The notes under the pieces were generated by a model. It was given only the letters and a program-made list of their open reading frames with translations. It did not search any database and had not been told where the DNA came from. Position numbers and translations under genes: made by a program. Shown here piece by piece: positions 12,421 to 41,986 of a DNA stretch of 64,000 nucleotides. Numbering within the stretch: the first letter of the stretch is position 1; every line of letters begins with the position of its first letter. This DNA is from Microbulbifer thermotolerans. GTDB taxonomy: Bacteria > Pseudomonadota > Gammaproteobacteria > Pseudomonadales > Cellvibrionaceae. The stretch lies in NCBI RefSeq assembly GCF_900112305.1, contig NZ_FOKT01000002.1, positions 124,001 through 188,000 of the forward strand, written 5' to 3'.

Positions 12421-12426
12421 CCTCAG

Positions 12427-12639
12427 GGAACCTCTGATCAATTCGCGTGAACACTATGGTAGCTTCCGGGGCGCTCAGGCAATAGGACGGACATTTCGAA
12501 AACGCACGAGTACTTCCCTGTAGCTCCGACAGATACATCCCTGTATCCGACGGTTTCGAAATGCCCGTCCTATCACCTGAGCTTCACATCCGCCCCCGAA
12601 GCGCCTCTGCCACCAGAAAGTGACTTAATCAGAGGTTCC
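12427..12639 (+). repeat. Intact 213-bp MITE-like element, copy A
   Basis: Terminal inverted repeats GGAACCTCTGATCAATTC and TTAATCAGAGGTTCC bound the element. Inside, a second pair of arms (GCTCAGGCAATAGGACGG and its complement CCGTCCTATCACCTGAGC with small changes) encloses TTTCGAAA arms and a small hairpin GATAC-ATCCCT-GTATC. The flanks are CTCAG on both sides (12422-12426 and 12640-12644), an apparent target duplication. No coding frame fits. It fills most of the 12368-12766 gap between the hydrolase and sigma-factor genes. Confidence 0.85.
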
Positions 12640-12766
12640 CTCAGCCTTTTTGTAACGAAACATCTAAACGAACGACTAACTACAAAGAAATCACCGCACA
12701 CTGAGAAGGTTCGCCGACATCGGTTACCATTGCCTGCCTCAGTGTTGCTTGTCCCAGGAGAAGGCT

Positions 12767-27491: not shown

Positions 27492-28223
27492 CTATAGCGC
27501 CAAAATCAGCATCAACCCCAGTCCGGTGATAAAAAAACCGAAATGCAAGGATACAGCGTGCAATGATGCCTGCTGCTTAATTTCCGGTATCAGGTCCGAT
27601 GCTGCGATATAAATAAAATTGCCCGCGCCAAAAAGCACCAGCCCAGTCACATCAAAGCTTTGAGAAATCCCGTAGGCAATCAACGCTCCCAGCGGAAAGG
27701 TTAACGCAGACAGAAAATTCCAAATCAGTGCACGACGTTGCGACCAGCCACCGTGGACCAGTACGCCGAAGTCCCCCAGCTCCTGAGGGATCTCATGGGC
27801 AACCGCTGCAATCCAGGCGGAGATGCCCGCTCGAGGGTCAATTAAAAAGGCACTGGCGATAGCGAGTCCCCCAATAAAGTTGTGAATGCCATCGCCGAGA
27901 AGGATGAGATAAGTCACCGGAGGCGCGTCCGCCTCCCTGGTGCTGTGCGAGTGGTGCCAGTGCAACAATTGTTCCAATAACAAAAAAGTCGTAAAGCCCG
28001 CCACCATCCACAGACTTGCAGAGAGTGGCGTAGCCCTACCCAATCCCTCCGGCAGCATATGAAAAAATGCTCCGCCGAGCAGAGTCGCGGCGGCCAGGGA
28101 CACCAAGGGCAAAAGCAGCCGCTCCAAGGTGGCAGGACTGCAAAACACTGTGACACCGCCAACCATGGCAACAGCGCTCATCAAAAAGCTACCGGTAACA
28201 ATCCAGATCAATGGTTCGGACAT
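27492..28223 (-). CDS. ZIP family metal transporter
   Basis: Inner-membrane divalent-metal (usually zinc) importer of the ZIP family, 243 residues with about eight hydrophobic helices. The metal-binding motifs are HNFIGGLAIASAFL in helix 4 and HEIPQELGDFGVLVHGG in helix 5, both canonical. The start is ATG 28223 (MSEPLIWIVTGSFLMSAVAM), with GGGA upstream. A His-rich loop (HWHHSHS) lies in the cytosolic loop before helix 4, typical of ZIP proteins. It is divergent from the TonB receptor/CobN-like operon across a gap holding a MITE-like repeat and a Zur-like box, and so belongs to the local metal island. Confidence 0.92.
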   Translation of the reverse strand: MSEPLIWIVTGSFLMSAVAMVGGVTVFCSPATLERLLLPLVSLAAATLLGGAFFHMLPEGLGRATPLSASLWMVAGFTTFLLLEQLLHWHHSHSTREADAPPVTYLILLGDGIHNFIGGLAIASAFLIDPRAGISAWIAAVAHEIPQELGDFGVLVHGGWSQRRALIWNFLSALTFPLGALIAYGISQSFDVTGLVLFGAGNFIYIAASDLIPEIKQQASLHAVSLHFGFFITGLGLMLILAL

Positions 28224-28300
28224 CACAACTATTCCCGGCAATTCGGCTGCTCAGTAGCGCTTGGGCTGGGCTAGTAACTGGCACGCCCAAATATCCCTAG

Positions 28301-28513
28301 GGAACCTATGACTAATTCGCGTGAACACAATGGTAGGTTCCGGGGCACTCGGGCAATAGGACGGATATTTCTAAAACGCACGAGTACTTCCCTGTAGCTC
28401 CGCCAGATACTTCCTTGTATCCGATGGTTTCGAAATATCCGTCCTATCACCCGAGCTTCACATCCGCTCCCGAAGAATCTCTGCCCCCAGGAAATGAATT
28501 AATCAGAGGTTCC
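28301..28513 (+). repeat. Intact 213-bp MITE-like element, copy B
   Basis: Same architecture as copy A: terminal repeats GGAACCTATGACTAATTCGC and TTAATCAGAGGTTCC, inner arms around TTTCTAAAACGC and GTTTCGAAAT, flanked by CTAG on both sides (28297-28300 and 28514-28517). It lies between the divergent ZIP and TonB receptor genes, about 190 bases before the receptor start, so it separates two metal-related promoters. Confidence 0.88.
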
Positions 28514-28568
28514 CTAGGTTGAGATTTATTTTGGCTCATTAATCACACAATGCTGGCGCACACCTTTT

Positions 28569-28587
28569 TATAATGTTATATCATATC
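28569..28587 (+). promoter_or_regulatory. Probable promoter -10 (TATAAT) overlapped by a Zur-like box
   Basis: TATAAT at 28569-28574 is a consensus -10. It is followed at 28575-28587 by GTTATATCATATC, which matches the gammaproteobacterial Zur core GTTATAATATAAC at 11 of 13 positions (counting either centre base). A repressor bound here would cover the transcription start of the TonB receptor/CobN-like operon. No clear -35 is visible. The site is weaker than the Zur box at 40743. Confidence 0.45.
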
Positions 28588-28704
28588 TACCTTATGAAGA
28601 ATGAGGCGCCTCAGCACAAGATGCACTGCCAATCTGTGCAAATAGCGCCCACTCATAGTGCGACGTCACAGATCGCTTAATCCACACCAAAGAATGTATA
28701 AATA

Positions 28705-30630
28705 ATGAACAAGAGTATATTTTTGCTGCTACCTGTCAGCCTTTCTGTACTTGGGATATGCGCAGAAACGGCACATGCCGTGGAAGCGTCCGGGCTGGAA
28801 ACGATTGTTGTGACAGCCAGCCGTCAGGAATCCAAACTTGTAGACGCGCCGGCCAGTATTTCTGTCGTTACGGCGGACGAGTTGAACCGGATTGATGCCG
28901 AGGATTTAGCCGATGCACTCACCGCGCAGACCGGTGTAACCGTCACTTCCGTGGGACAGACCCGTCGTGGCATCAGCATTCGCGGCATGCCGGTCGAGCA
29001 TACGCTGTACTTGGTCGATGGCCGCCGAATCAGCTCCAGTAACAGTGTCATTGCCCACTCGGACTACGAGCTGAGCTGGTTGCCCCAGTCCGCTATTGAG
29101 CGAATTGAAATGGTCCGCGGGCCAATGTCGTCTCTCTACGGCGCCGATGCACTGGGCGGTGTTGTCAATATCATCACCCGCGAGCCCGGCGACAGCTACC
29201 ACGGCGAAGTAACGGCCTCACTCACGAACCTGGATCAATCCGGTGGAAATACAAATCAAGCCACTTTCTATCACTCCGGGCCTCTGATAGCAGAAACGCT
29301 GGCGTTTACCCTGGCGGGACAGTACTTCCAGCGTGACAATCTGCCAATGGAGGATAATGAGGCTATCTCAGAAATTGAAGGGAGAGAGTCTAAAGCCGCA
29401 CAAGGTTCCCTATTATGGACTCCGCGCGACGGCCAGAAACTGCGGTTTACCTACAGTCGAAATGACGATGAGCGTGAGCGGGATGTTGCTAGCTACTCCA
29501 ATGGCTACACCTCTATTGATGATATCGAGCGAGAACAGTTCGCTCTAAGTTATTACGGCGACTGGCAATGGGGACACGCCAGAATCAATGCTTACCAAGC
29601 TGAGTTGAAAAGGAAAAATCTCCGTACAAATGGTGTATCTGCTACGCGTCCACAAGCGCTTAAAGACCACATCATCGATGGTCACCTCGGTCTACCGCTG
29701 GCCTCAGGCCACTATCTCTCCATTGGTGGGCAACTGCGTGACGAAAAACTGTTCGACACTGAGTCATCCGCCATTGGTGAATCCTCGGCAACGCATAAGA
29801 GCCTCTTCCTGCAAGATGAGTGGAGGTTATCTGCTCCACTGAAAATCGTTTCTGGCCTCGGTATCGACAGCCACGAGGACTACGGGCAAGTGATCAATCC
29901 CCGTTTGTACGCCGTATACCATCTCAATGACAGCTGGACCCTAAAAGGCGGTTACGGCGAGGGCTTTAAAGCCCCTTCCCTAACGGAGCTGTCTGGAGAA
30001 TTTCGGGTATTAGCCGCCGGCGGTATGTTTTGGGTTGAAGGTAACCCGGATCTCGAACCTGAGCGCTCAACAACTTATGAGCTCAGCTTTGAGTACACGC
30101 GGAACGTTTGGTTTATTGCCACTAGGATCTATGAAAATCAGCTCGAGAACCTTGTGCAAACTGTGTGCTATGCCGACTGTGGACTACGCGGCATTGAGCG
30201 GCGCAGCTATCAGAATGTCAGCGAGTCGCTGATTCGAGGACTCGAACTCGAGCTCAGCCGCAAACTGACCGATACGCTGCACGTCGACATCAATCATACG
30301 TACCTGGAAACCGAAGATCTGGATAGCGGAGAACCGCTGGAGGAACGGCCGCAATACATCAGCAACCTGATTTTGACCTGGTCTCCCTTGGACTCTGCAC
30401 AACTGCGCTGGCGGGCTGAGTTTGTCGGCAAACAGTATGTGGGCTCCGAGCGCTATGCGCCCAAATATGATCTTCACCATATCGATGTGGATATTGAATT
30501 AACACCTTCGCTAACGCTGTATTCCGGCGTTGAAAACATATTCGATGAGCGACTGCTGGACTCCTCCGATCTCTACAGTCTGGCTGAGCCTGGGAGAGAA
30601 ATTCGTTTGGGAATGCGAGCAAAGTTCTGA
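28705..30630 (+). CDS. TonB-dependent receptor of the CobN-like operon (HmuR/BtuB type)
   Basis: Outer-membrane receptor of 641 residues. A signal peptide (cleavage near THAVEA) is followed by the TonB box LETIVVTASRQ, the plug (ISIRGMPVEHTLYLVDGRRI, RGPMSSLYGADALGGVVNII) and a 22-strand-size barrel ending LGMRAKF. The short length and the DALGGVVNII plug place it near BtuB/HmuR/CirA receptors rather than the larger receptor at 3959. It is the first gene of an operon: the CobN-like gene follows after eight bases. In Bacteroidota hmu operons the receptor in this position imports haem; here the ligand could be haem, another metallo-tetrapyrrole or a metal chelate. Confidence 0.9.
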   Translation: MNKSIFLLLPVSLSVLGICAETAHAVEASGLETIVVTASRQESKLVDAPASISVVTADELNRIDAEDLADALTAQTGVTVTSVGQTRRGISIRGMPVEHTLYLVDGRRISSSNSVIAHSDYELSWLPQSAIERIEMVRGPMSSLYGADALGGVVNIITREPGDSYHGEVTASLTNLDQSGGNTNQATFYHSGPLIAETLAFTLAGQYFQRDNLPMEDNEAISEIEGRESKAAQGSLLWTPRDGQKLRFTYSRNDDERERDVASYSNGYTSIDDIEREQFALSYYGDWQWGHARINAYQAELKRKNLRTNGVSATRPQALKDHIIDGHLGLPLASGHYLSIGGQLRDEKLFDTESSAIGESSATHKSLFLQDEWRLSAPLKIVSGLGIDSHEDYGQVINPRLYAVYHLNDSWTLKGGYGEGFKAPSLTELSGEFRVLAAGGMFWVEGNPDLEPERSTTYELSFEYTRNVWFIATRIYENQLENLVQTVCYADCGLRGIERRSYQNVSESLIRGLELELSRKLTDTLHVDINHTYLETEDLDSGEPLEERPQYISNLILTWSPLDSAQLRWRAEFVGKQYVGSERYAPKYDLHHIDVDIELTPSLTLYSGVENIFDERLLDSSDLYSLAEPGREIRLGMRAKF

Positions 30631-30638
30631 GGTAATTC

Positions 30639-33600
30639 ATGTCGTTTACGTCTAAAAATCTCATTTTTTTGCTATTCATTATCCTGCCCTGTGGGGCACT
30701 TAGCCAAATGGATAAGCCCATTCGGGTCAGTGTGGTGGCCAATGATTTTGTGCTGCCAGGTAAAATCTCCCGGCTACGCGAAATTGCACAGCAATACGGT
30801 ATTGAACTGACGGGGTTCACCGTCGGCCACTCGCCGGGAAGCGCGCGCTCTTGGCTTTCCCAATCAGACTTGGTCATTATCGATACTCCCCGCGGCGGCG
30901 ATCGTGCCCAGGTAATGGCCTATATTGGCGATGCGCTAAAGAGTGAGACGACTCCTTGGATTGCGATCGGCGGCGGAAAGCCTACAGGGGAACATCTGCC
31001 CGGCGAGGTAAAGGCAGCTCTGTGGGGATACTACAGAGCTGGTGGTCAAAATAATTTCCATCATATGATGGCGTATATCGCGGCTTGGTGTATGGGGAAA
31101 AGTACAGCGGATGTCCCCCTGCCAGAAACACTACCCGTGGCGGGCTTCTATCATCCTCAGGCGCCGGAATACTTTCAGAGGCTCCAGAATTATTTTTCCT
31201 GGGGCGCTGATCGCTGGGACATAGGTGCTCCGGTCATGGCAGTTGCGATTGCTTCTTCGGCAGTTTCCAACGGCGAAACCGCCTTTTACGACGATCTGAT
31301 CCAGGCGGTCGAGTCGGTTGGGGGCATACCGCTTGTATTCTGGTTTGACCGTAATGCGCCCGCTCCCATCACGTCGTTAATCGCCGATGCAAACCCCGTC
31401 ATGCTGGTAAACAGCACCCACATGATGGGGGAAAACCTCCGCCGGGACTTGGAACTTCTGAATATCCCCGTAGTAATGGGGCTCAATTATCGCAGCGGGG
31501 ACATACAACACTGGCGCGACGCCACCCAGGGCCTGTCCGCGGCGTCAGCAGCGGCACTGATGATGATTCCGGAAACTTGGGGGATGTCAGACCCCCTGGT
31601 ATTAAGCGCGGTGGAAACGGGCACACCGAAAGCGATTCCAGAGCAGGTATCGATGCTGATTGGCCGCTTTCTTGCCATGGCGCACCTGCGCAATGCCGAG
31701 CGTAACGAGCTACATCTCGCGCTGTTGTTCTGGAATAGCCCCAGTGGAGCGAAAAACCTTTCCGCCTCCAATCTGAATGTGCCTCGCAGCATTGAAAATA
31801 TTCTGCGCGCGCTGAAGGAAAGCGGCTACGCCGTGACACCCGTTCGGGAGCAAGAGCTGATCACCACAGCACAGCGGTTACTGTCCGCCTACTATCACCC
31901 CGAACAGCTCGATTCCCTGCTGGCAGATGGCCTTGCGGTCACGCTGCCCTTGGATGACTACCGCAACTGGTTACAAGAGCTGCCGGCGAGAATCCGTAAG
32001 GAGCTGCAAGATACTTGGGGCAGGCCGGAAGATCACTGGGCCTACCGCCGCCTGAACGGTGCGGATTACTTTGTGATACCGTTGGCGCGGGCGGGTAAAC
32101 TCGCCCTACTCCCGCAGCCACCCCGTGCCGACCGCCCCGGAGAGGGGGTTCACGATACACACCAGGCGCCGGGGCACTTTTACCTGGCAACTTATCTCTA
32201 TCTCCGTGAGCACTTTGCCGCAGATGCCTTAATTCACTTGGGTACCCATGGCACCCAGGAGTGGACGCCGGGCAAGGACCGGGGCCTGTCGGCTTACGAT
32301 TACCCCAACCTGGCGGTGGGCAATGTGCCCGTATTCTACCCATACATTCAAGACAATATCGGCGAGGCCATGCAAGCCAAAAGGCGCGGTCGAGCCACTG
32401 TTATAAGCCACCAGACGCCCCCTTTTTCTCCGTCCGGACTATACGATGAACTTCGGGATATCCACGACTTGTTACACCGCTATCAGCAACTGGATAAGGG
32501 CGCAGTACGTGATACTACATTTGACAGGATATTGTCCGAAGTAATGCAGCATGATTTGCATCGCGATCTCGGCTGGAGCGAGGAAGCCATGCGCCGGGAA
32601 CACAGCACCTTTCTTCCCCTGCTCCACGATCATCTGCACCTGCTGGCAAAAAGCAGTACTCCCATTGGCCTGCACAGCTTTGGTGAGTCCGCACCGCTCA
32701 AGTACCGCATCGCCACAGTGATGCAGCAGTTGGGAGAGGATTATTACCAGGCTCTCGATATTAATCCCGCGGAGGTTCACGCGACCAGCTATGATGCGTT
32801 GTTTGGCCAGCCCACTTATCAATACCTCGCACCCTTTCTGAACGGTGAGAAATCGCCGTCTGCCGCGGGTTCCCGCAACCTGAGGATATTGATGGAAAAG
32901 GCCCAAGCCTTTCACGACCGGCTCATCCACAACAGTGAGATCGAATCACTTCTGGCGGGTTTGCGGGGACAGCTGGTTCCCCCGGGCCCGGGAGGAGATC
33001 CGGTACGAAACCCGGAGACCACCAGCGGCACCAACCTTTTTGCACTGGACCCGAACAAGGTCCCCAGTCCAGAAGCCTATCGCGCGGCCGAGAAAACCTT
33101 TACCGACTTAGTCAAGGACTATCAGGAAAAGCACAATGGGCAGTGGCCGGACAAACTGGCTTTTTCTCTCTGGTCTTCGGAAACCATCCGGACTCTGGGC
33201 ATAACCGAAGCGCAAATTATGCATGCGCTGGGTGTGCGTCCAGAGTGGGACCGCGGCGGTCGGGTCACAGGCCTTACGATCATTCCAGAGGCGGAGTTGG
33301 GGCGGCCCAGGATAGACACGGTGATTCAAGTCACCAGTGTTTACCGAGATCAATTTGACGGCATTATGAAGAAATTAGCCCGGGTGATCCGGATACTTTC
33401 TCAGCAAGAGGCTGACGATAGCAATACCATTGCCCGCAACAGCCGGCAGTTGATGTTATCACTGCGTGAACAAGGCTTAACCAATGCAGAAGCGGCCCGT
33501 TATGCGAGTGCCCGGATCTTCAGTAATCCGCCAGGCGATTACGGCACAGGTGTAACTGTTGCGGCGATGAACTCCACGGAGTGGGAAGATGAGGCCGTGC

Positions 33601-34511
33601 TCGCCGATACCTTTATTCAAAGCCAGTCCTATATTTATACAGAAGAAGACTGGGGCATGCCGGTTCAGGACTTGGCGTTGCTGGAAGCACAGTTACGGTA
33701 CGTAGATGCTGTGTTGCTTTCAAGATCCTCCAATTTGCACGGGCTCCTGTCCACCGATCATCCCTATGAGTATCTCGGCGGACTCTCCGCCGCGGTCAAA
33801 AAAGTCAGCGGAGAACACCCGCAACTCTATGTTTCCGACGCCAGGTCGACAACCGCGACTATCACCGCTGCAGAGCAATTTTTTAGCAATGAAATGCGCA
33901 TTCGCTATCAGAATCCACAATGGATTGAAGGCATGAAAGTCGAGGGTTACGCGGGAACAGTACAGATACTGAAAGTCGTCAACAATCTATTTGGTTGGCA
34001 GGCCATGGATTCCAACATGGTGCGGGAAGATCAATGGCAGGCAATGCACGACACCTATGTCATGGACGAGCGGAAGCTGGGGCTCAACCAATGGTTTGCG
34101 GAGCACAACGCTACTGCCCAGGCACAATTAATAGAGCGCATGATGGAGGCCGTGCGCAAGGGATACTGGGATGCCAGTGAGCAGACCCGGCGGGAAATGA
34201 TCGAACGCTGGCAGTTGTTGGTCAATGAACTGGGAGCGGAAACCGACGCGCAAAAAACAGTGGAATTTATCCGCCAGCAGGCAGCGGGCTTCGGCCTGGA
34301 GGCTGCCGGCCCCAATGAAGGTAACCACGTCAAGGGGCAGATTTTAGAGCCGGTTATGGAGCAGTCAGCCTCACAAGGTGAAACCCGCTGGGCACTGTGG
34401 ATTTTCTTTTTCTTGCTCTGCGGCAGTTTTGTCCTCGGCGTTGTCCGCACGCTGATCCGTTACCAAAAACTAGGCATTGATCATCTGGAGCCAGAGAATG
34501 TTCAGCAGTAA
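30639..34511 (+). CDS. Periplasmic, membrane-anchored CobN-like chelatase (HmuS-like)
   Basis: CobN/magnesium-chelatase-H family protein of 1290 residues. Unlike cobalamin-pathway CobN, it starts with a signal peptide (FLLFIILPCGALSQ) and ends with one membrane helix (WALWIFFFLLCGSFVLGVV) plus a short cytosolic tail, so the body should be periplasmic. Family motifs present are HLGTHGTQEWTPGKDRGLSA near residue 531, GLHSFGESAPLKYRI, NLFALDPNKVPSPEAY and ADTFIQSQSYIYTEEDWG. No CobS/CobT or other cobalamin genes accompany it. Gene order receptor-CobN-ExbB/MotA-DUF2149 matches hmuR-S-U-V of Bacteroidota, where HmuS is reported to remove iron from haem; an equivalent metal-removal role is inferred. 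ATG 30639 follows a GAGG site. Confidence 0.87.
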   Translation: MSFTSKNLIFLLFIILPCGALSQMDKPIRVSVVANDFVLPGKISRLREIAQQYGIELTGFTVGHSPGSARSWLSQSDLVIIDTPRGGDRAQVMAYIGDALKSETTPWIAIGGGKPTGEHLPGEVKAALWGYYRAGGQNNFHHMMAYIAAWCMGKSTADVPLPETLPVAGFYHPQAPEYFQRLQNYFSWGADRWDIGAPVMAVAIASSAVSNGETAFYDDLIQAVESVGGIPLVFWFDRNAPAPITSLIADANPVMLVNSTHMMGENLRRDLELLNIPVVMGLNYRSGDIQHWRDATQGLSAASAAALMMIPETWGMSDPLVLSAVETGTPKAIPEQVSMLIGRFLAMAHLRNAERNELHLALLFWNSPSGAKNLSASNLNVPRSIENILRALKESGYAVTPVREQELITTAQRLLSAYYHPEQLDSLLADGLAVTLPLDDYRNWLQELPARIRKELQDTWGRPEDHWAYRRLNGADYFVIPLARAGKLALLPQPPRADRPGEGVHDTHQAPGHFYLATYLYLREHFAADALIHLGTHGTQEWTPGKDRGLSAYDYPNLAVGNVPVFYPYIQDNIGEAMQAKRRGRATVISHQTPPFSPSGLYDELRDIHDLLHRYQQLDKGAVRDTTFDRILSEVMQHDLHRDLGWSEEAMRREHSTFLPLLHDHLHLLAKSSTPIGLHSFGESAPLKYRIATVMQQLGEDYYQALDINPAEVHATSYDALFGQPTYQYLAPFLNGEKSPSAAGSRNLRILMEKAQAFHDRLIHNSEIESLLAGLRGQLVPPGPGGDPVRNPETTSGTNLFALDPNKVPSPEAYRAAEKTFTDLVKDYQEKHNGQWPDKLAFSLWSSETIRTLGITEAQIMHALGVRPEWDRGGRVTGLTIIPEAELGRPRIDTVIQVTSVYRDQFDGIMKKLARVIRILSQQEADDSNTIARNSRQLMLSLREQGLTNAEAARYASARIFSNPPGDYGTGVTVAAMNSTEWEDEAVLADTFIQSQSYIYTEEDWGMPVQDLALLEAQLRYVDAVLLSRSSNLHGLLSTDHPYEYLGGLSAAVKKVSGEHPQLYVSDARSTTATITAAEQFFSNEMRIRYQNPQWIEGMKVEGYAGTVQILKVVNNLFGWQAMDSNMVREDQWQAMHDTYVMDERKLGLNQWFAEHNATAQAQLIERMMEAVRKGYWDASEQTRREMIERWQLLVNELGAETDAQKTVEFIRQQAAGFGLEAAGPNEGNHVKGQILEPVMEQSASQGETRWALWIFFFLLCGSFVLGVVRTLIRYQKLGIDHLEPENVQQ

Positions 34512-34995
34512 CTTGGAAAGTGTTTTATCTCAGGTATCGGCGGTTTTTTTAGCCCCGTCTCTTCTGTGTATTGTTCTCGCCCTGATATATACCCTCTACG
34601 CCTTCGGGGCCCTGCTCACCGACGCCTGGCTAATGCGTAAGGGGGTACGGAGAACAGAGCTCAGTGCCTATGCAAGGAAGGCTGCAAAGCACAGCGATGA
34701 TCTGGAGCTGTTTATCATGCGTAAACTGGAATTGTTGCGGCTCACTTCCCGGGTTACGCCCATGCTGGGACTGGTGGCGACTTTAATCCCTATGGGGCCC
34801 GCATTGCTGGCCCTTTCGGAAAACGACACCACCTCTGTCGGCAGTAATATGGTTGTCGCCTTTTCCGGTGTGACTCTAGCACTGATCACCGCCAGCCTCA
34901 GCTTTGTGATACTGAATATCCGCCGCCGCTGGCTGTTTGAGGAACTGCGCATGATTGAGCAGGATAGCGAACCAAGCGCAGGAGGGAGGGTATAA
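34498..34995 (+). CDS. MotA/TolQ/ExbB family proton channel-like protein
   Basis: Inner-membrane protein of 165 residues with about three hydrophobic helices (around residues 12-35, 80-100 and 112-135). The family segment VTPMLGLVATLIPMGPALLAL followed by VAFSGVTLALITASLSFVIL corresponds to the channel helices of ExbB/TolQ/MotA. ATG 34498 lies inside the end of the chelatase gene (14-base overlap), showing coupling. It probably works with the DUF2149 protein encoded directly downstream as an ExbD-like partner, supplying energy to the receptor or the anchored chelatase; this corresponds to HmuU. The partner role is inferred. Confidence 0.87.
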   Translation: MFSSNLESVLSQVSAVFLAPSLLCIVLALIYTLYAFGALLTDAWLMRKGVRRTELSAYARKAAKHSDDLELFIMRKLELLRLTSRVTPMLGLVATLIPMGPALLALSENDTTSVGSNMVVAFSGVTLALITASLSFVILNIRRRWLFEELRMIEQDSEPSAGGRV

Positions 34996-34996
34996 A

Positions 34997-35305
34997 GTGG
35001 CAAGGCGTTTTCTGGAGCAGGAAGATGATGATCCGATTCTGTCAGTAGTCAATCTAATCGATTTGTTTCTGGTAATTGTCGTCATCCTGCTGATCATTGT
35101 GGTCCGAAACCCCCTGAATCCTTTTTCCAATAAGAACGTGGTGGTAGTTGAAAATCCCGGGGAAATGAACATGAAAATTACGATCAAAAATGGCGAAGAA
35201 TTAACCAGATATGAAAGTGATGGAGCTATCGGCGAAGGCGACGGTATCAAAGCTGGCGTCACTTACAAGCTCTCGAATGGCAAGATGATTTATGTTCCCG
35301 AGTAA
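34997..35305 (+). CDS. DUF2149 membrane protein (ExbD-like position)
   Basis: A 102-residue protein with one N-terminal membrane helix (VNLIDLFLVIVVILLIIVV) after a short acidic cytosolic leader (RRFLEQEDDDPILS), and a periplasmic C-terminal domain ending SNGKMIYVPE. This topology matches ExbD/TolR, and DUF2149 proteins regularly accompany MotA/TolQ/ExbB proteins next to CobN-like genes (HmuV position). GTG 34997 is chosen because GGAGGGAGGG lies just upstream and residues before it have no family match. It follows the preceding gene by one base, closing the operon; a long palindrome comes 53 bases later. Confidence 0.85.
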   Translation: MARRFLEQEDDDPILSVVNLIDLFLVIVVILLIIVVRNPLNPFSNKNVVVVENPGEMNMKITIKNGEELTRYESDGAIGEGDGIKAGVTYKLSNGKMIYVPE

Positions 35306-35357: not shown

Positions 35358-35385
35358 GGATGGCAAGCATATATGCTTGCCATCC
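35358..35385. terminator. 28-bp perfect palindrome after the CobN-like operon
   Basis: The 14-base arm GGATGGCAAGCATA is followed at once by its exact complement. As RNA it would form a strong hairpin at the end of the operon, but only a short AT-rich tail (TATGATTTAA) follows, not a T run. It may be a terminator or mRNA-stabilising structure; a protein-binding site is the alternative. Confidence 0.5.
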
Positions 35386-35395
35386 TATGATTTAA

Positions 35396-35607
35396 GGAAC
35401 CTATGATTAATTCGCGTGAACACTATGGTAGCTTCCGGGGCGCTCAAGCAATAGGACGGACATTTCGAAAACTCACGAGTACCTCCCTCCAGTTCCGATG
35501 GATACACCCCTGTATCCGACGGTTTCGAAATATCCGTCCTATCACCTGAGCTTCACACCCGCCCCGAAGCGCCTCTGCCACCAGAAAGTGACTTAATCAG
35601 AGGTTCC
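35396..35607 (+). repeat. Intact 212-bp MITE-like element, copy C
   Basis: Terminal repeats GGAACCTATGATTAATTC and TTAATCAGAGGTTCC, inner arms with ATTTCGAAAAC and GTTTCGAAAT, and flanking TTAA duplication (35392-35395 and 35608-35611). It lies between the end of the CobN-like operon and the convergent DUF6702 gene, and fills most of the 35306-35637 gap together with the palindrome. Confidence 0.88.
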
Positions 35608-35637
35608 TTAAATCTCAGCGTAATATTGAGGAAAATT

Positions 35638-36135
35638 TTAGTGAACCTGCAAGTCCACTAGCACCTGGTTGGCACCGGGCGTGAGTGTATGACTGGTCGT
35701 TTTTCCACCACTGGTTACATTGAGGGTATTTACTTGATCTCGCTCAATATCCATCAACATGGATTGCCGCACTGTCAGTTGGTTGCCCTGAATATCCGCT
35801 AGAGGGACTTCCTGATAGATCCAGATGTTATGCACATCTGCCTCCATACCAACCCATTCAGGTTTTAAGGCTGTACCCTTTTCGTCCCGTATCTGGAATC
35901 GAGCGTTGATATATTTTTCGATTTGCGCTGGTACATCCTTGAGATCCTTATCCGCATTGAGTGACAGCGCTCTTTGCATGTCGGCAACAAAAAAACGATG
36001 GGAAACCTCCAGCATCTGTGTTCTTTTATTCACTGAAAGCTCAGTAAGACCAAAGTGATATCGGTGCGCTTGCGCATGCAGAGAAAAAGCCATCGATATC
36101 ACTAGGAAGATGAAAGACGAAAAAGGAATCTTCAT
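35638..36135 (-). CDS. DUF6702-type periplasmic protein
   Basis: A 165-residue exported protein: signal peptide FSSFIFLVISMAFSLHAQAHR, then HYHFGLTELSVNKRTQMLEVSHRFF, which resembles the DUF6702 family (often found beside peptidases in marine bacteria and Bacteroidota). The rest is beta-rich, with NIWIYQEVPLADIQGNQLTVRQSMLMD. The function of the family is not known to me. It lies 95 bases downstream of the M1 peptidase gene on the same strand and is probably cotranscribed with it. An unusually His-rich mature N-terminus (AHRYHFG) might bind metal; this is speculative. Confidence 0.75.
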   Translation of the reverse strand: MKIPFSSFIFLVISMAFSLHAQAHRYHFGLTELSVNKRTQMLEVSHRFFVADMQRALSLNADKDLKDVPAQIEKYINARFQIRDEKGTALKPEWVGMEADVHNIWIYQEVPLADIQGNQLTVRQSMLMDIERDQVNTLNVTSGGKTTSHTLTPGANQVLVDLQVH

Positions 36136-36230
36136 GGGGTGTCACCGGGATTATCAGGATATGAGGAGATGATTGGGAACGGGAGCCCCCAGTTGGCGTC
36201 AGTACAACTGGAGGCTCACAGAAAAGAAGG

Positions 36231-38597
36231 TCAGCCCTTCTCTTTTAGTTCAGTGTCCCAGTCTTTCATGAGGTTGCGCCGTTTCTCTTCTTTAAATAGC
36301 TCAAGGCGCGACTTGATAATACGGCGTGGGTAGTAATTGTTCTCCACATTAACATCTGCCGTTTCCCAGTGCGGATCAAGAATGACTGATTTTAGAATCT
36401 TGTTTTTATCCCGCACTAACATTTTGGAGGTTTTACGACTGTTTTTTGCCCAGATCTCGGCAGGAATCCTGAGGTCCTCCACAGTGCCATCTTCATATTC
36501 CAGACGCAGGAACAACGGCATAACCAAGCCGCCGATATTGGAGAAGTCCAGGACATAGACATTGCTTTCCACGCTGAGCATGTCTCTTTCCCAGTCTTCC
36601 AGTCCAGCGAGCATATCCCGGTAGCTGTTGCGATCGGCATTGGATACATCAAACTCGTCGTGTTTGTTGTAAAAGTCCGCAAGCTCCGGCTTGGCATCAA
36701 CAATCCGGGGCAGTTTACGCGCCCGATTTTCAATTGCTGTGATGCTCTCAGGCTCACTGTTGTGCTGCTCCCGTTTCCAGGGACCTTCGATGTCTGGGTT
36801 TTTCGTACCTACTGTGTAATGACGCACTTGGTCGAGACTGATATCCACATGATCGGTGGTATAGAACCACCCGCGCCAGAACCAATCGAGATCCATGCCG
36901 GAGGCATCCTCCATGGTGCGGAAAAAGTCCGCGGGCATCGGGCGTTTGAATTTCCAGCGCTGGGCATACTCGCGAAACGCAAAGTCGAACAACTCACGCC
37001 CCATAATTGACTCGCGCAATATGTTGAGCGCGGTGGCCGGTTTGCCGTAAGCGTTATTGCCGAATTGAAGAATAGATTCCGAGTTAGTCATAATCGGAAC
37101 CTGGTTATCACTCTTCATATAATCGACAATTTTTCGCGCATCACCACGGCGGGATGGGTATTTTTCTTCCCATTCCTGCTCTGCAAGGAACTGCAAAAAG
37201 GTATTCAGCCCTTCATCCATCCAGGTCCACTGCCGCTCGTCTGAATTGACGATCATAGGGAAATAGTTGTGCCCTACTTCATGGATAATGACTGAAATCA
37301 GTCCATATTTGGTAGTGCGCGAATAAGTGCGCTTGCTTCGGTCCTCGTCATCGATTTCCGGCCGGGGGCCATTGAAAGTAATCATCGGGTATTCCATCCC
37401 GCCGACAGGACCGTTAACGGATATGGATACGGGATAGGGATAGTCGAAGCTATAGCGATTGTACACATCCATGGTATGGATGATGGTCTCTGTCGAATAT
37501 TTATCCCAAAGTGGCATGCCCTCTTCCGGGTAGAAAGACATGGCCAGGGTATCGGTCCCGCCTTTTTTATATCCCTGTGCATCCCACAGGAATTTGCGCG
37601 AGGACGCCCAGGAAAAGTCGCGGACATTCTCCGCTTCAAAAATCCAAGTTTTACGCTTTTTCGAGCGGCTCTTTTCGTTCTTGAGCGCTTCTTCCTTCGT
37701 GATAATCATCACTGGTTTCTGCGCGGTACGCGCTTTTTTCAGGCGTGCACGTTGTTCCCGGGTCAGCACCTCCTCAGGGTTCTGCAAAACACCGGTGGCA
37801 GCCACCACGTGGTCGGCAGGAACATTGATAGCGACTCGATAGTTGCCGAATTCCAGTGCAAATTCACCGCGCCCCAAAAAGGGTTTGTTCTGCCATCCAC
37901 TGACATCGTTATAGGCGGCCATGCGCGGAAACCACTGCGCGATTTCGTAGAGATAGTTGTCGTCGCGCTTAAAATACTCATAGCCGGAGCGCCCGCCGAG
38001 CGCCTTCTGCTCAATGACTTTATAACTCCAGTCGATTTGGAAACGCACTTGCTCTCCCGACTTCAGAGGTTTCGGCAAATCGATGCGCATACCAGTGTCG
38101 ACGATGGTGTGGGCAAGCTCGCGTCCCTTGCTGTCAGCCACGCGCGAAATCTGGTAGCCGCCGGGGAATTCATCCGCTACAACTTGCCGTCGAAAAACGC
38201 CAAAAGGAATTGTGTCAGGCGCAATAGACTCGAGGTCTACTGGCGTTGCCAGATTGCCCATGGAGTCCGGCTTAAATCGGTTTTGATCTAGCTGTAACCA
38301 AAGGTAGCGCAGGGTATCCGGTGAATTATTGGTATAAGTCACCGTTTCAGAAGCCGTGATTAACTGCTTGTCATCGTCAAGGGATACCTGGATATCGTAA
38401 TCCGCCTGCTGCTGCCAGTAGGCGTGCCCTGGTGCTCCAGAGGCGGTGCGATAGGCATTGGGGGTCGGTAAGAGTTCGTCTAATTGCCGGAACTTATCAC
38501 CGGTGACATTCAAGGGGTCCGAGGCCATGGCCAGGTTCACCCCAGCCATGGCAAAGATTGCCGCTCCCCAGCGGCGGAGTGAATTTACATTCATCAC
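36231..38597 (-). CDS. M1 family zinc metallopeptidase
   Basis: Exported aminopeptidase-type protein of 788 residues with signal peptide (WGAAIFAMAGVNLAMA-S). The gluzincin site is complete: HEVGHNYFP (two His, Glu) with the third ligand in WTWMDEGLNTF 19 residues later. The GxMEN-type exopeptidase loop appears as VGGMEYPMITF. The N-terminal beta-domain (YDIQVSLDDDKQLITASETV) is typical. A Lys/Arg-rich insertion follows the first domain (RARLKKARTAQKP, KNEKSRSKKRK). It is probably the first gene of a pair with the DUF6702 gene. Its zinc dependence and closeness to zur are suggestive, but no Zur box is visible before it. Confidence 0.9.
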   Translation of the reverse strand: MMNVNSLRRWGAAIFAMAGVNLAMASDPLNVTGDKFRQLDELLPTPNAYRTASGAPGHAYWQQQADYDIQVSLDDDKQLITASETVTYTNNSPDTLRYLWLQLDQNRFKPDSMGNLATPVDLESIAPDTIPFGVFRRQVVADEFPGGYQISRVADSKGRELAHTIVDTGMRIDLPKPLKSGEQVRFQIDWSYKVIEQKALGGRSGYEYFKRDDNYLYEIAQWFPRMAAYNDVSGWQNKPFLGRGEFALEFGNYRVAINVPADHVVAATGVLQNPEEVLTREQRARLKKARTAQKPVMIITKEEALKNEKSRSKKRKTWIFEAENVRDFSWASSRKFLWDAQGYKKGGTDTLAMSFYPEEGMPLWDKYSTETIIHTMDVYNRYSFDYPYPVSISVNGPVGGMEYPMITFNGPRPEIDDEDRSKRTYSRTTKYGLISVIIHEVGHNYFPMIVNSDERQWTWMDEGLNTFLQFLAEQEWEEKYPSRRGDARKIVDYMKSDNQVPIMTNSESILQFGNNAYGKPATALNILRESIMGRELFDFAFREYAQRWKFKRPMPADFFRTMEDASGMDLDWFWRGWFYTTDHVDISLDQVRHYTVGTKNPDIEGPWKREQHNSEPESITAIENRARKLPRIVDAKPELADFYNKHDEFDVSNADRNSYRDMLAGLEDWERDMLSVESNVYVLDFSNIGGLVMPLFLRLEYEDGTVEDLRIPAEIWAKNSRKTSKMLVRDKNKILKSVILDPHWETADVNVENNYYPRRIIKSRLELFKEEKRRNLMKDWDTELKEKG

Positions 38598-38953: not shown

Positions 38954-39955
38954 TCAGGCAGCACTCAATGCTTCCAGCCAAGCGCTTTCCATCCGGGTCC
39001 ACTCACCCGGCTGCGCGTCGATCACCTCTACGCGGCTTTCCGATATATCGTCAAGCTCCAAAACGCTCAGTACGGAATCCGCCTTATTGAAACCAAACAC
39101 CCCGTCTTGGGTGATAAAAACGCCCTTAACTCTATCCGCGCCGATACCGCTAATTAGGGAAAACAGTTTGTGAAAATCAAATACCAAGGTGGGATCAAAT
39201 CGCCAGCCACAACTATGAAAGCCCTCGCCACTGTGCTCCAGACGTAGATAGCCGCATTCCGGTATCGGTTGCTCATTTATCTCCGGATGCGTGGCATGGG
39301 TGTGCGTTTGAGCCTGCGGCAGCGTGAAACCACTGGGGGAATGCAGCCATTCCGGCAGAAGCCTGCCCTGCTCGACCACCTTTAGCGGTTTAGTAGGGCC
39401 GTGCGCACTGCTGGAAAGAAAACGGCGAAGCGCTTCAAGGTCGCGCGGACCGTAGAGATCGGATTTATTGGCCACCACCAGATCCGCCACTTCCAGCTGC
39501 TGGCGGAAGGTATCGTTACTCAGGTAGCGTTCATCCGCCAGACAGCGCGCATCCACGAGTGTCAAAGTCGCGCGCAAATCCAGCACCCCACTGGATGCAG
39601 CCTCAGAAAGTGCGGTGAGGACTTCGCGGGGGTGACCGAGGCCAGTGGGTTCTATCAGCAGCCGCTGGGGTCTCGCCCGCCTCAAAAGCTGATTGAGAGC
39701 CACCTGCATGGGTAAGCCGGCTGTACAGCACATACAACCACCGGGTACTTCGCGGATAAAGACCTCTCCGTCATTTTCTGAGCCAAATAGGCTGCCATCG
39801 ACGCCGATCTCACCAAACTCGTTCACCAGCACCGCCCAACGCTCGCCGGTGGGCTTATTGTCCAGGAGGTGACGAATAGCTGTCGTCTTGCCAACCCCCA
39901 GAAAGCCGGTAATCACATTGGCCGGCACTTGGCGAATCGGGTCTTCTATCTTCAT
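38954..39955 (-). CDS. COG0523 (CobW-type) zinc-related GTPase, zur-linked
   Basis: G3E-family metallochaperone GTPase of 333 residues. The P-loop is GFLGVGKTTAIRHLL, the metal-binding CxCC motif is GGCMCCTAG, and the GTP-specificity motif is VANKSDL. A His/Thr-rich loop (TLPQAQTHTHATHPE) before the C-terminal domain is a typical metal-binding insert. Its ATG (39955) directly follows the stop of zur, so the two are translated from one transcript. Zur-linked COG0523 proteins are thought to deliver zinc to client enzymes during zinc limitation; the client here is unknown. Confidence 0.9.
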   Translation of the reverse strand: MKIEDPIRQVPANVITGFLGVGKTTAIRHLLDNKPTGERWAVLVNEFGEIGVDGSLFGSENDGEVFIREVPGGCMCCTAGLPMQVALNQLLRRARPQRLLIEPTGLGHPREVLTALSEAASSGVLDLRATLTLVDARCLADERYLSNDTFRQQLEVADLVVANKSDLYGPRDLEALRRFLSSSAHGPTKPLKVVEQGRLLPEWLHSPSGFTLPQAQTHTHATHPEINEQPIPECGYLRLEHSGEGFHSCGWRFDPTLVFDFHKLFSLISGIGADRVKGVFITQDGVFGFNKADSVLSVLELDDISESRVEVIDAQPGEWTRMESAWLEALSAA

Positions 39956-40423
39956 TCAGGCCGCACTCCGCCCGCATTCATCGCACAGGCAGTCCAGTTC
40001 CAGTTGAGACGTCTGCAAATGGTAACCGGCCGCTTCCACTGTCTCCCGCAGCGCAGCGATCACTTCAGGTTTAATGCCAATTTCCCGCACTTTGCTGCAG
40101 CGGCTGCAAATGAGAAATTGCGGAGTTTCATGCCGGTGGTCACAGGCAATATGGGCACAGGCGAGATATTTATTTTCCGAGTTTAATTTATGCGCGAGAT
40201 TCTCATCGACCAGGAAATCCAACATCCGGTACACGGACATGGCGGGAATCGGCTCACCGAAATCGACCCGGTACTGATCTGCAATCTCGTAGGCGGACAG
40301 TGGCGTTTTCGCGCGCAGCAGTACTGTGAGGATGTTTCTGCGCTTTTCGGTCAGACGGGCCCCGGAAATGCGGCAGCTTTGCTCCGCGGCACTCAAGTTG
40401 CGTTTAAGCTCGGATGCATTCAT
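39956..40423 (-). CDS. zur: Zinc uptake regulator Zur (Fur family)
   Basis: Fur-family zinc sensor of about 155 residues that represses zinc-acquisition genes when zinc is bound. The winged helix is seen in LTEKRRNILTVLLRAKTPLSAYEIADQYR, and the metal sites in HIACDHRHETPQFLICSRCSKV and the C-terminal CLCDEC (two CxxC pairs), typical of Zur rather than Fur. The start is taken at ATG 40423 (MNASELKRNLSAAEQ); the frame stays open to 40519 but the extra 32 residues look non-family, and no clear ribosome site decides it. It is followed directly by a COG0523 gene and is divergent from a second one that carries a strong Zur box. Confidence 0.92.
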   Translation of the reverse strand: MNASELKRNLSAAEQSCRISGARLTEKRRNILTVLLRAKTPLSAYEIADQYRVDFGEPIPAMSVYRMLDFLVDENLAHKLNSENKYLACAHIACDHRHETPQFLICSRCSKVREIGIKPEVIAALRETVEAAGYHLQTSQLELDCLCDECGRSAA

Positions 40424-40594
40424 GGATTTATTAATTTCAACTTGTTTCGCACCAGGTGGCGATTCACCTGCTGTGCAATGTTTGTCTGCCCTAAGGAAAA
40501 GTCCCCAAGGCGATGCCACTATGGCTGACTTTTCGAGGTTATCATAATAGAAAGCCTCCGTTCATTCGCATGAGCGTTTCCCTAGATTCCCGGG

Positions 40595-40742: not shown

Positions 40743-40762
40743 AATGTTATGTTATAACATAT
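40743..40762. promoter_or_regulatory. Zur box upstream of the second COG0523 gene
   Basis: AATGTTATGTTATAACATAT contains the palindrome ATGTTATAACAT and fits the gammaproteobacterial Zur consensus (GTTATA-centre-TATAAC). It is about 31-50 bases before ATG 40793, covering the likely promoter, so zinc-bound Zur should repress this gene. It is over 300 bases from the zur start, so it says nothing about zur autoregulation. Confidence 0.8.
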
Positions 40763-40792: not shown

Positions 40793-41986
40793 ATGGATAA
40801 TCGCTTACCGGTAACAGTGCTGTCTGGTTTTCTCGGCGCCGGCAAGACCACCTTGCTCAACAGTATTCTCAATAATCGTGCCGGCAGACGTGTAGCGGTA
40901 ATTGTCAATGATATGAGTGAGATCAACATTGATGCCGGCCTTGTACACAGTCAGATTCACCTCCACCGCGGGGAGGAGAAGCTGGTGGAAATGAGCAACG
41001 GCTGTATTTGCTGCACCCTGCGCGAAGACTTGTTGGAAGAGGTAAGCCGCCTGGCCCGGGACGGGCGTTTTGACCACTTATTGATCGAATCCACCGGGAT
41101 ATCCGAGCCTCTGCCGGTAGCAGAGACCTTCACTTTTGCCGACGAAAACGGCAACAGTCTTTCCGATCTGGCACGCCTGGACAATATGGTCACGGTCGTG
41201 GATGGCGTCAACTTTCTGCAGGAATACCATGCGGCCCGCTATCTCAAGCAAACCGGCGAATATCTTGGCGATGATGATGAGCGCAATGTGGCCGACCTAT
41301 TGGCGGAACAGGTAGAGTTCTGCGACCTGCTACTCATCAGCAAAACAGATCTTATGACCGCTTCACAGCTGGCTGATCTCAAGGCGGTATTGCGCAGCCT
41401 GAACCGCCGTGCGGAGATTATCCCAATGGAGAACGGCAATGTCCCTATTGCCAAGATCCTCGATACCAGGCGGTTTGATTTTGAGCAGGCCCAGCTGGCG
41501 CCGGGCTGGCTCAAGGAGCTGCGCGGCGAACATACCCCGGAGACTGAGGAATATGGCATTCGGAGCTTCACCTATCGCGCGCGACGCCCCTTCCACCCGC
41601 AAAAGCTGTACGATTTTTTCCACCATCCGGCACTCAGTGGAAAGCTTCTGCGCTCTAAGGGTTTCTTTTGGCTCGCCAGCCGCCCTGACTACGCCGGCAG
41701 CTGGAGCCAGGCGGGAGGCATAGCGCAACACGGCGCCGCAGGTTATTTCTGGAGTGCCGTACCCCGTGACCGCTGGCCGGAAAATCCCGAGCAAGTGCAA
41801 TATATTCTCGAAAACTGGCGGGAACCTTACGGCGACAGACGGCAGGAATTGGTCTTTATCGGCCAGAATCTGCAACAACCCTGGCTGCAAGAGCAGCTGG
41901 ACTCATGCCTCCTTAACGATGAAGAAATCGCCGCCGGTGAGAGATTCTGGCGAAGCCTGCCAGACCCCTTCCCCGCCTGGGACTGA
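40793..41986 (+). CDS. COG0523 GTPase (ZigA/CobW type), Zur-regulated
   Basis: Metallochaperone GTPase of 397 residues. ATG 40793 has the ribosome site GGGAGG and starts just before the P-loop ([20 protein letters not shown]); the upstream extension of the frame to 40652 crosses the Zur box and is not coding. It has the metal site [12 protein letters not shown], the Walker-B-like [13 protein letters not shown], and LISKTDL for GTP recognition. The C-terminal CobW domain runs from [16 protein letters not shown]. Length and motifs resemble the ZigA group, induced in zinc starvation. The strong Zur box directly upstream supports that role. Confidence 0.92.

Follow-up and report, generated by a model that had tools for sequence, protein, structure and literature searches.

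A possible zinc-stripping operon for imported chelates in Microbulbifer thermotolerans, apparently turned on when zinc is short

What does a CobN-type protein do beside a TonB-dependent receptor and among zinc genes? This question is raised by a four-gene operon (28705-35305) of Microbulbifer thermotolerans GCF_900112305.1, located in the window, by which we mean the whole 64,000-nt stretch analysed (contig NZ_FOKT01000002.1, 124,001-188,000, forward strand). The operon encodes a TonB receptor, a CobN/HmuS-type protein, an ExbB-like protein and a DUF2149 protein (Table 1), and the tight spacing given in the first-pass annotation was reproduced, with a gap of 8 bases, an overlap of 14 and a gap of 1. 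The ExbB-like gene starts with an ATG at 34498, read directly in the sequence, and the DUF2149 gene with a GTG at 34997, preceded by an aggaggg stretch; the DUF2149 protein has a single hydrophobic helix with Asp (NLIDLFLV) and is ExbD-like by eye only. The hairpin 3' of the operon is weak evidence for its end, because 12 terminator-like hairpins were found in the region compared with a mean of 6.9 in shuffles. The zinc-gene surroundings noted earlier are real, as the ZIP, zur-like and COG0523 neighbours are all backed by Pfam. The repressor gene was called zur from its context and its best NCBIfam match, Zur at 79 bits (below the cut-off of 167), and the GTPase adjoining it scores 114 bits with TIGR02475 (CobW), below the cut-off of 332. 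Two 215-bp repeats either side of the operon were considered as marks of a mobile unit, and the idea was dropped: full-length members of this repeat family number at least 40, with four nearly full copies and one partial copy in the 64-kb window, so repeats flanking the operon are expected.

Table 1 Features of the operon and its neighbourhood (window positions).
Feature	Position	Strand	Support	Remark
ZIP-family metal transporter	27492..28241	-	PF02535, 120 bits	divergent neighbour
Zur-like box TGTTATATCATATCT	28574..28588	+		131 bases upstream of receptor start codon
TonB-dependent outer-membrane receptor	28705..30630	+	Pfam plug 88.2 bits, barrel 147.3	Cir-like
HmuS/CobN-type protein	30639..34511	+	Pfam CobN-Mg_chel, 960.5 bits	1290 aa; probably periplasmic, membrane-anchored
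MotA/TolQ/ExbB-like proton-channel subunit	34498..34995	+	PF01618 MotA_ExbB, 28.1 bits (cut-off 22.9)	
DUF2149 protein	34997..35305	+	PF09919, 90.9 bits	
Terminator-like hairpin	35358..35385	+	12 pairs	3' of operon; without clear T run
DUF6702 protein	35638..36135	-	PF20420, 124 bits	last gene on zur side and strand
M1-family metallopeptidase	36231..38597	-	PF01433, 57 bits	
COG0523 (CobW-type) GTPase	38954..39955	-	PF02492, 148 bits	adjoins zur
Zur-like FUR-family repressor	39956..40519	-	PF01475, 48 bits	
Perfect Zur box TGTTATGTTATAACA	40745..40759	+	22.8 bits	between zur and second COG0523 gene
Second COG0523-type GTPase	40793..41986	+	PF02492, 186 bits; CobW_C, 88 bits	transcribed away from zur; start read in sequence

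The first part of an answer comes from the promoter. Using a matrix built from the promoters of five relatives, the box TGTTATATCATATCT scored 17.8 bits, a value reached by 0 of 300 simulated promoters, and it is the second-best site in the 64 kb, the only site above it being TGTTATGTTATAACA, which has the top score. With a fixed box pattern, TGTTATGTTATAACA is the sole site in the genome with no mismatch. When two mismatches were allowed, the pattern occurred at 10 places in the genome and a reversed control at 9; near-match counts were therefore rejected as evidence, and the case for TGTTATATCATATCT lies in its position and in its conservation among relatives rather than in rarity. Our genome surveys, which scored mostly two candidates per genome and give lower bounds, yielded a clade of 15 such CobN/HmuS-type proteins. 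The Zur-like box pointed out in the first-pass annotation has counterparts at the promoters of 13 of the 14 other members and is a clade-wide property (14/15). The 14 boxes span 10 genera as counted and possibly 9, as the Parahaliea genus may coincide with another; L044, L046, L105 and L106 were placed in one genus, L107 and L108 in one, and L109 and L110 in one. Five box promoters are the training set, each excluded from the matrix for its own score, and the boxes of L046, L105 and L106 are identical to the L044 training site. L047 (p 0.013) and L107 (p 0.007) have weak boxes, and L109 was counted with its likely true start codon, preceded by TGTTACGTTATAACA; the stretch from a start codon too far upstream gave p 0.997. 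The only member without a box is on an Azospirillum plasmid near nikR, where the inverted repeats included no clear NikR site. With the same matrix, no box was found in the neighbourhood of the ZnuA-type gene of our genome, and for the other periplasmic type 0 of 16 promoters carry a Zur-like box at p < 0.05. COG0523 and DUF1826 genes are neighbours in L047 and L107, and a divergent dksA gene, whose finger retains a single Cys, shares the Zur box in L044 and L106. Both a box at the promoter and a zur gene are present in the M. thermotolerans genome, and the predicted control of the operon by Zur, with induction by zinc shortage, is well supported.

The first-pass annotation had suggested that this control would be a new physiological link, but it is already in print for P. 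aeruginosa PA1922-PA1925, including promoter binding (PMC8531726, PMC4542158). Judged from two genomes of a Pseudomonas-type genus (L109 and L110), our operon is the homologue of PA1922-PA1925 and thus not wholly new; what is added here is the clade-wide occurrence of Zur boxes, the active-site pair, its separate gain or retention, and the place of the protein outside B12-type CobN. According to PMC4542158, PA1922-PA1925 transcripts rose 45-147 fold in a znuA mutant, in which cobalt was also raised; a Zur site is present, and PA1922 reached 147-fold in zinc starvation compared with 172-fold for the top gene. The Zur protein bound the PA1922 promoter in EMSA, even without added metal (PMC8531726). 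In the papers considered, proposals for the function go no further than free zinc or cobalt import. Reviews assign PA1922-PA1925 to the uptake of non-chelated zinc (PMC10393844; PMC8456098), in which case the receptor would pass Zn(II) and the CobN-like protein would be only a periplasmic zinc chaperone or docking factor, in keeping with the strong Zur control. We consider this unlikely, as the operon encodes neither a binding protein nor an inner-membrane metal transporter, Cir, a catecholate receptor, is the nearest match of its receptor, and a 1290-aa chelatase fold with a conserved active-site His pair exceeds the needs of a chaperone.

The second part comes from the CobN-type protein itself. 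The hydrophobic N-terminus and the single hydrophobic C-terminal segment described earlier were both seen, the latter near residue 1251, as judged by hydrophobicity only; the N-terminal measure does not separate the protein groups, and the C-terminal anchor is not present in three B12-type CobN checked. In quick trees, from which 9, 10 and 9 rows were excluded, the protein and its clade fall outside the 10-row B12-type CobN clade (100 support). No CobT was found in the genome, neither of its two PF02514 proteins qualifies as a B12-type CobN, and no cob genes were seen beside the operon, as the earlier reading had it. On the strength of the tree, the missing CobT and the C-terminal anchor, the alternative of a B12-type CobN whose signal peptide had been called in error was rejected, and the view of the protein as a CobN relative of another type stands. 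It passes the NCBI model NF004644 "CobN", a name that is not diagnostic because the haem-linked paralogue of the same genome and a Parahaliea protein also pass. The best solved match in both sequence and fold is HmuS (PDB 9d26). The fold model is of moderate quality (pLDDT 70.5, pTM 0.55), and the structural comparison proposed earlier did favour HmuS (TM 0.56), but by a tiny margin over CobN (0.53), with ChlH at 0.51. The HmuRSUV-like architecture without HmuY also holds: the R, S, U and V types of hmuYRSTUV are present, and Y as well as T are absent. Since the relatives CobN and ChlH insert metals, a metal might instead be inserted, in the periplasm, into a ligand that is either imported or secreted. 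This is very improbable in our judgement, as CobN and ChlH need the ATP partners CobS/CobT and ChlI/ChlD, of which CobT was searched for in the genome and not found, and the His/Glu pair described below is that of the de-chelatase HmuS.

The active site was compared using the HmuS family features listed in PMC12583661, in which the HmuS H538A mutant had lost haem conversion. The alignment pairs H537 with HmuS H538, D1040 with D1208, H1041 with H1209, E1044 with E1212 and H261 with H254. H537 lies in HLGTHG, matching HmuS HFG(T/A)HG, and is His in 15/15 clade members; an equivalent of the catalytic His538 is common to nearly the whole superfamily. The counterpart of the HmuS motif LSLDHxxEFMGG is LSTDHPYEYLGG, in which the flanking letters differ and D, H and E are kept in all 14 members that reach the site, so the His1209/Glu1212 pair is present in 14/14. 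The His matching His254 is found in 15/15, and neither it nor the pair occurs in 20 related periplasmic proteins or 10 B12-type CobN. HmuS Met79 is replaced by Pro in 15/15 clade members (and by Arg in two gammaproteobacterial HmuS-like rows), leaving only the His254 equivalent of the two site 1 ligands. As a measure of the Met-rich insertion, the highest number of Met in any 120 residues is 9 here, against 30 in Prevotella HmuS and 10 in B. finegoldii HmuS, and because of the last value this count does not separate the groups. In the tree, the clade stands by itself within the proteobacterial periplasmic group and does not join the four HmuS rows; with this and the missing Met79, strict membership of the HmuS family has to be given up, and the His/Glu pair (the group was named by this trait after the trait was noticed) appears to have been acquired or retained independently of true HmuS. 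Nor is the pair a simple marker of de-chelation, because the haem-receptor-linked paralogue has Asp/Gln in its place. Fur-like boxes were found at 6 of 11 Asp/Gln loci tested; among the loci with such boxes, L041 and L042 share one genus, as do L111 and L112. De-chelation is moderately supported as the activity of the HmuS-like protein, with removal of metal from a tetrapyrrole as a candidate form of it.

The cargo is a separate matter. The best solved match of the receptor is the colicin I receptor Cir (E 1.8e-102), and the tetrapyrrole cargo proposed in the first-pass annotation found no support, the receptor scoring 198.5 bits with the TonB-hemin model (cut-off 316.85). An FxAP/NPxL stretch without His occurs in 7 of 13 receptor rows (the 13th row, L001, is out of frame and carries no weight), and a Cys pair near mid-barrel in 12/12 receptors; these features gave no cargo clue. 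A HemB that depends on zinc would stop working when the metal is short, and import of haem or porphyrin could then offset failing haem synthesis, a role that kinship to HmuS would also suit. The HemB motif is without Cys in all 12 genomes searched of the 15 clade members, which we take to be the zinc-free type, so backfill for a zinc-dependent HemB was rejected. With a receptor below the haem-model cut-offs and a separate haem-receptor-linked paralogue in the genome, haem import seems improbable. Cobalt or cobalamin uptake, with Co(II) replacing Zn(II) in enzymes during zinc starvation, has in its favour the kinship to CobN, the raised cobalt of the znuA mutant and the finding that the Zur regulon is repressed, and zinc starvation relieved, by Co (PMC13083405). 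However, the receptor is far from the BtuB models (180.5 bits, cut-off 599.7), CobT is missing, the active site differs from B12-type CobN at two residues, and a cobalamin riboswitch is lacking in the window, L001, L004 and L005, because Rfam gave no match there at gathering score; we regard cobalt uptake, too, as quite unlikely.

Since the operon is apparently on when zinc is short, its role may be to take zinc off a chelate that it imports. Our preferred reading is a zinc-starvation machine for chelate import and periplasmic de-chelation, which we stop a little short of calling probable; its narrower form, a Zur-controlled zinc de-chelatase with a separately acquired His/Glu pair that frees the metal from a zinc tetrapyrrole or another zinc chelate after import, is put forward tentatively, as possible. 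In zinc shortage, Zur would leave the promoter (repression as in the P. aeruginosa homologue), and the Cir-like receptor would admit a metal chelate to the periplasm, with the ExbB-like/DUF2149 pair probably supplying the energy, as suggested by HmuU/HmuV. The central cleft of the HmuS-like protein would take the chelate, and the axial His pair (H537, H1041) with E1044 would remove the metal by protonation, as in HmuS, without ATP-driven CobS/CobT; removal of Zn(II) requires no redox step. The freed zinc could pass to an inner-membrane transporter, e.g. the adjacent ZIP protein or ZnuABC. This reading is favoured by the Zur boxes (14/15), the zinc-gene neighbours, the His/Glu pair, the clade of its own, the lack of CobT and HmuS as best match. 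Against it count the Cir-like receptor, the change of Met79 to Pro, the haem-linked Asp/Gln paralogue, the moderate fold model with a fit to HmuS barely above CobN and ChlH, the binding of Zur without metal in EMSA, and the Azospirillum copy without a box near nikR. Overall, the regulation is well supported, de-chelation moderately, and the substrate (a zinc chelate, possibly a tetrapyrrole) weakly; what is imported is probably a chelate of zinc, for which a zinc tetrapyrrole is the leading, unproven candidate.

In a major opportunistic pathogen, PA1922-PA1925 ranks with the operons that zinc starvation induces most strongly. If our reading is true, stripping of zinc chelates would explain this orphan operon and would add a new branch to the ways in which bacteria acquire zinc, suggesting a zinc counterpart to the harvest of iron from haem. 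The chelatase superfamily would also be split, between loci with Zur boxes and His/Glu and Asp/Gln loci with Fur-like boxes in 6/11, which is hidden by the label 'cobaltochelatase CobN'.

Compared with the Bacteroidota hmuYRSTUV operon and HmuS (PDB 9d26), a related gut-bacterial system that removes iron from haem, our operon has the same order of receptor, CobN-like, MotA/ExbB and DUF2149 genes, and its protein shares the chelatase fold, the axial His pair with Glu, and His254; it differs in having no HmuY, HmuT or Met79, and in its separate clade, Zur box and Cir-like receptor. With the B12 cobaltochelatase CobN it shares the fold and the Pfam family PF02514, whereas here a C-terminal hydrophobic anchor is present, CobT and adjacent cob genes are missing, and His/Glu replaces Asp/Gln. 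The haem-receptor-linked paralogue on contig C18 of the same genome is 39% identical and has ExbB-like, DUF2149 and CobN-like partners, with a divergent haem receptor above the model cut-off and a Fur-like box that is weak at best (p 0.06). The homologue PA1922-PA1925 (TonB receptor, CobN-like, ExbD-annotated and hypothetical proteins), judged from the stand-ins L109 and L110 of a Pseudomonas-type genus, is alike in gene order, clade and Zur box, with CobN-like proteins 49-50% identical. The L110 operon adjoins nrdD and a radical-SAM gene, as presumably does that of PAO1, whereas the operon described here adjoins zur, COG0523 and ZIP genes.

The window operon is a real, HmuS-like operon, probably under Zur control. 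The four genes described in the first-pass annotation, with their order and spacing, were all found again on re-reading, and Pfam assigned them as TonB receptor, CobN/Mg-chelatase, MotA/ExbB and DUF2149. The CobN/HmuS-like protein (1290 aa) has a hydrophobic N-terminus, a feature which alone did not separate periplasmic-type proteins from three B12-type CobN proteins, and a single hydrophobic segment close to its C-terminus; the paralogue and B. finegoldii HmuS share this segment, and all three B12-type CobN proteins checked lack it. Among PDB sequences, HmuS (9d26) ranked first with 422 bits, followed by CobN (372) and ChlH (363). An AlphaFold model of residues 24-1223, built using nine clade members, was of moderate quality (pLDDT 70.5, pTM 0.55), and in the structural comparison suggested earlier, Foldseek placed HmuS first (TM 0.56), but CobN (0.53) was too near, and ChlH (0.51) followed, so that the ranking is consistent with HmuS kinship without discriminating it from CobN or ChlH. 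The genome has two PF02514 proteins, the window protein and a 39% identical paralogue on contig C18, whose CobN-like gene follows a separate ExbB-like/DUF2149 pair. The receptor divergent from this paralogue scores above the cut-offs of two haem-receptor models (382 bits, cut-off 323.75; 361.6 bits, cut-off 316.85); the active site of the paralogue is Asp/Gln, and its Fur-like box is weak at best (p 0.06, a narrow miss). CobT was not found in the genome search, and neither a cobalamin riboswitch nor any other Rfam match at gathering score was found in the window and three loci scanned.

Coordinates of repeats, operons and loci
Feature	Sequence	Coordinates	Remark
215-bp repeat	window	28298-28516	
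215-bp repeat	window	35393-35610	
215-bp repeat	window	12425-12641	
215-bp repeat	window	54072-54289	
215-bp repeat	window	6646-6717	partial
DUF6702 and M1 peptidase genes	window	35638-38597	same strand and side as zur/COG0523 pair
Second HmuS/CobN-type operon (L002, L004)	contig C18	80982-84818	ExbB-like, DUF2149, CobN-like; divergent from the haem-model receptor
Chelatase-like protein in TonB/ExbB operon	L053	7919-11869	
Azospirillum brasilense plasmid locus	L064	9905-21863	then ABC transporter, TonB receptor, nikR

According to published work on HmuS, His538 and His1209 are the axial pair of the HmuS de-chelation cleft, Glu1212 partners His1209, and Met79 and His254 are ligands of a second haem (PMC12583661). 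We compared these residues in an alignment of 54 proteins, of which 52 fell into five groups: the clade of the window protein and its close relatives (15), its sister group (3), the HmuS type (4, half of them from Bacteroidota and half gammaproteobacterial), the other periplasmic relatives (20) and B12-type CobN (10); L053 and L055, which both deviate from the active-site motifs, fell outside all groups and were left out of the counts. The His538 equivalent is present in 52/52 grouped proteins. Asp1208-His1209 and Glu1212 are matched in all 14 clade members reaching the site, in 3/3 sister and 4/4 HmuS-type proteins, and in none of the 20 other periplasmic or 10 B12-type proteins, which have Asp and Gln instead. 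His254 is matched in the clade (15/15) and the HmuS type (4/4) and in no protein of the sister (0/3), other periplasmic (0/20) or B12-type (0/10) groups. At the Met79 position all 15 clade members have Pro; Met occurs in the two Bacteroidota HmuS and one of the 20 other periplasmic relatives, and the remaining rows, including both gammaproteobacterial HmuS-type rows, have neither.

A tree of 45 rows, 13 of them clade members, put these members on one side of a branch (support 100) inside the proteobacterial periplasmic group, and HmuS and B12-type CobN each formed a group of their own. Another tree, which gained L121 (a contig-end copy), omitted L055 and was built without the active-site columns, agreed (14 clade members, support 98); in both trees the clade lies outside the sampled B12-type CobN. 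The proposed HmuS link was kept by the His/Glu pair and weakened by the missing Met79 and the separate placement. In the second tree the His/Glu state requires two changes, and a single clade of all its bearers was rejected (p 1.2e-6 without the active-site columns, 2.9e-5 with them). The cheapest reading is that the lineage of the clade and its sister group gained the pair separately from HmuS; as the root is not fixed, repeated loss could also account for it. Among other proteins seen, L050 and L054, from gammaproteobacterial genomes of the order, are HmuS-type outside Bacteroidota (LSLDHVYEFMGG, PHGR or PHGRI-like). L055, the one example looked at among the hits of about 1400-1550 aa, is chelatase-like but longer; its motifs diverge (GRHST, NNDAFD), its place in the tree is unsure, and its gene adjoins one of ExbB type. 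In the alignment, the L053 protein lacks the catalytic His motif common to the others.

Close relatives were surveyed with a profile (A1) built from seven of them, and the close type was defined by our own threshold of at least 1950 bits at the order level, where the next type reached at most 1209. The draws overlap, and at order, phylum and class level scoring was mostly confined to two candidates in each genome, which makes the counts lower bounds. The order, with 390 genomes, gave at least 8; the phylum outside the class, with 398, gave two further ones (1861-1865 bits); and the class, with 274, gave none besides the genome of the window. Two more (1774-1806 bits) were found among 25 genomes of the Pseudomonas-type genus. 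Within the window's genus the distribution is patchy, with the close type in one of nine genomes listed, that of the window itself. With Parahaliea mediterranea, an Azospirillum brasilense plasmid copy and L121 added, the working clade has 15 members in about 10 genera. L121, which reached 1022 bits over part of the A1 model, was first assigned by best BLAST match (39%) and later placed as the first branch of the clade (support 98). The order receptor, HmuS-like, ExbB, DUF2149 is kept wherever the contig reaches, except in the Azospirillum copy, which has just an 87-aa receptor-like stretch in front.

The Zur-like box reported on the promoter also held up, being common to 14 of the 15 clade members across about nine genera. 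Promoters were scored with a symmetric matrix built on the sites of five members, always leaving out the member being scored, and compared with 300 first-order simulated sequences; 13 of 14 had a box at p <=0.013; the fourteenth, L109, has TGTTACGTTATAACA upstream of its likely true start codon. At the Azospirillum locus nothing scored above 10 bits with this matrix; nikR lies nearby, and the locus is possibly a nickel-linked version of the operon. For the other periplasmic type, 16 promoters were scored and none reached p <0.05 (lowest 0.093), and Fur-like boxes, searched with a Fur consensus, occurred at p <0.05 in 6/11 loci of that type versus 0/6 of the clade type. L111 and L112 (Pseudomonas-type genus) and L045 (same family) are Asp/Gln type with Fur-like boxes and no Zur box, which may be the reason why other Pseudomonas looked Zur-unregulated.

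Clade neighbour genes agree with a zinc link. At L044 and L106 a divergent dksA gene shares the box; its product retains only one Cys in the C-terminal finger and is, as judged from this motif, of the zinc-free DksA2 type; L047 and L107 have COG0523 and DUF1826 genes, L107 additionally a methyltransferase and a FUR-family gene. Among the remaining, partly scanned members, no zinc-related neighbours were found at L048, L049 and L121. The genes near the window operon encode, by Pfam, a ZIP transporter, a DUF6702 protein, an M1 peptidase, a COG0523 GTPase and a Zur-like repressor, and a second COG0523 GTPase stands across a perfect Zur box from the repressor side; the DUF6702 and M1 peptidase genes are possibly part of the same Zur unit. 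The operon is also flanked by two copies of a MITE-like, self-folding (z -10.2) 215-bp repeat with inverted ends (AAGGAACCT.TGATTAA), as expected because the repeat is so dense in the genome (at least 40 full-length copies; 40/40 of those scored, out of 253 candidates).

The conserved Zur boxes, the His/Glu pair, the chelatase fold with its C-terminal anchor and the absence of CobT suggest the following function. The TonB receptor would import a chelate, energized by the ExbB-like/DUF2149 pair, the CobN/HmuS-like protein, presumably periplasmic, would take the metal off, and ZIP or ZnuABC would then take up zinc. Regulation and neighbour genes point to zinc as the metal. The protein family would suggest a tetrapyrrole as the chelate, but this cargo is disfavoured because the receptor is Cir-like (E 1.8e-102), far from haem receptors and BtuB (PhuR 5.6e-24, BtuB 3.7e-22, ShuA 1.5e-16), and below the cut-offs of haem and B12 receptor models. 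The idea that zinc starvation cripples HemB was unsupported: all 12 clade genomes searched (of 15 members) carry the HemB motif ALD(P/A)(F/Y)...G(Q/H)DG without Cys, which we take to be the zinc-free type.

Clade member L110, presumably P. aeruginosa PA7, has nrdD and a radical-SAM gene adjoining the operon; as these are the neighbours of PA1922 in PAO1, the window operon is of the PA1922-PA1925 type. This homologue is already known, yet unexplained. In published work, a znuA mutant showed PA1922, PA1923, PA1924 and PA1925 raised 147-, 122-, 45- and 56-fold, with a Zur site present (PMC4542158), and EMSA showed binding of Zur to the PA1922 promoter, also when no metal was added (PMC8531726). 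Reviews assign the operon to free, non-chelated zinc (PMC10393844, PMC8456098), and a cobalt origin has been put forward as speculation (PMC11761036); Co represses the Zur regulon and eases zinc starvation (PMC13083405), and one listing names PA1923 cobN2 (PMC7857532). Among the open-licence full texts listed in searches, no paper appeared to connect Zur or PA1923 with HmuS or any de-chelatase, and the de-chelation reading would make this orphan operon of zinc starvation sharply testable by biochemistry. Whereas one source states that the control of PA1922 by Zur 'seems unique to P. aeruginosa' (PMC10393844), the box of our clade extends over about nine genera.
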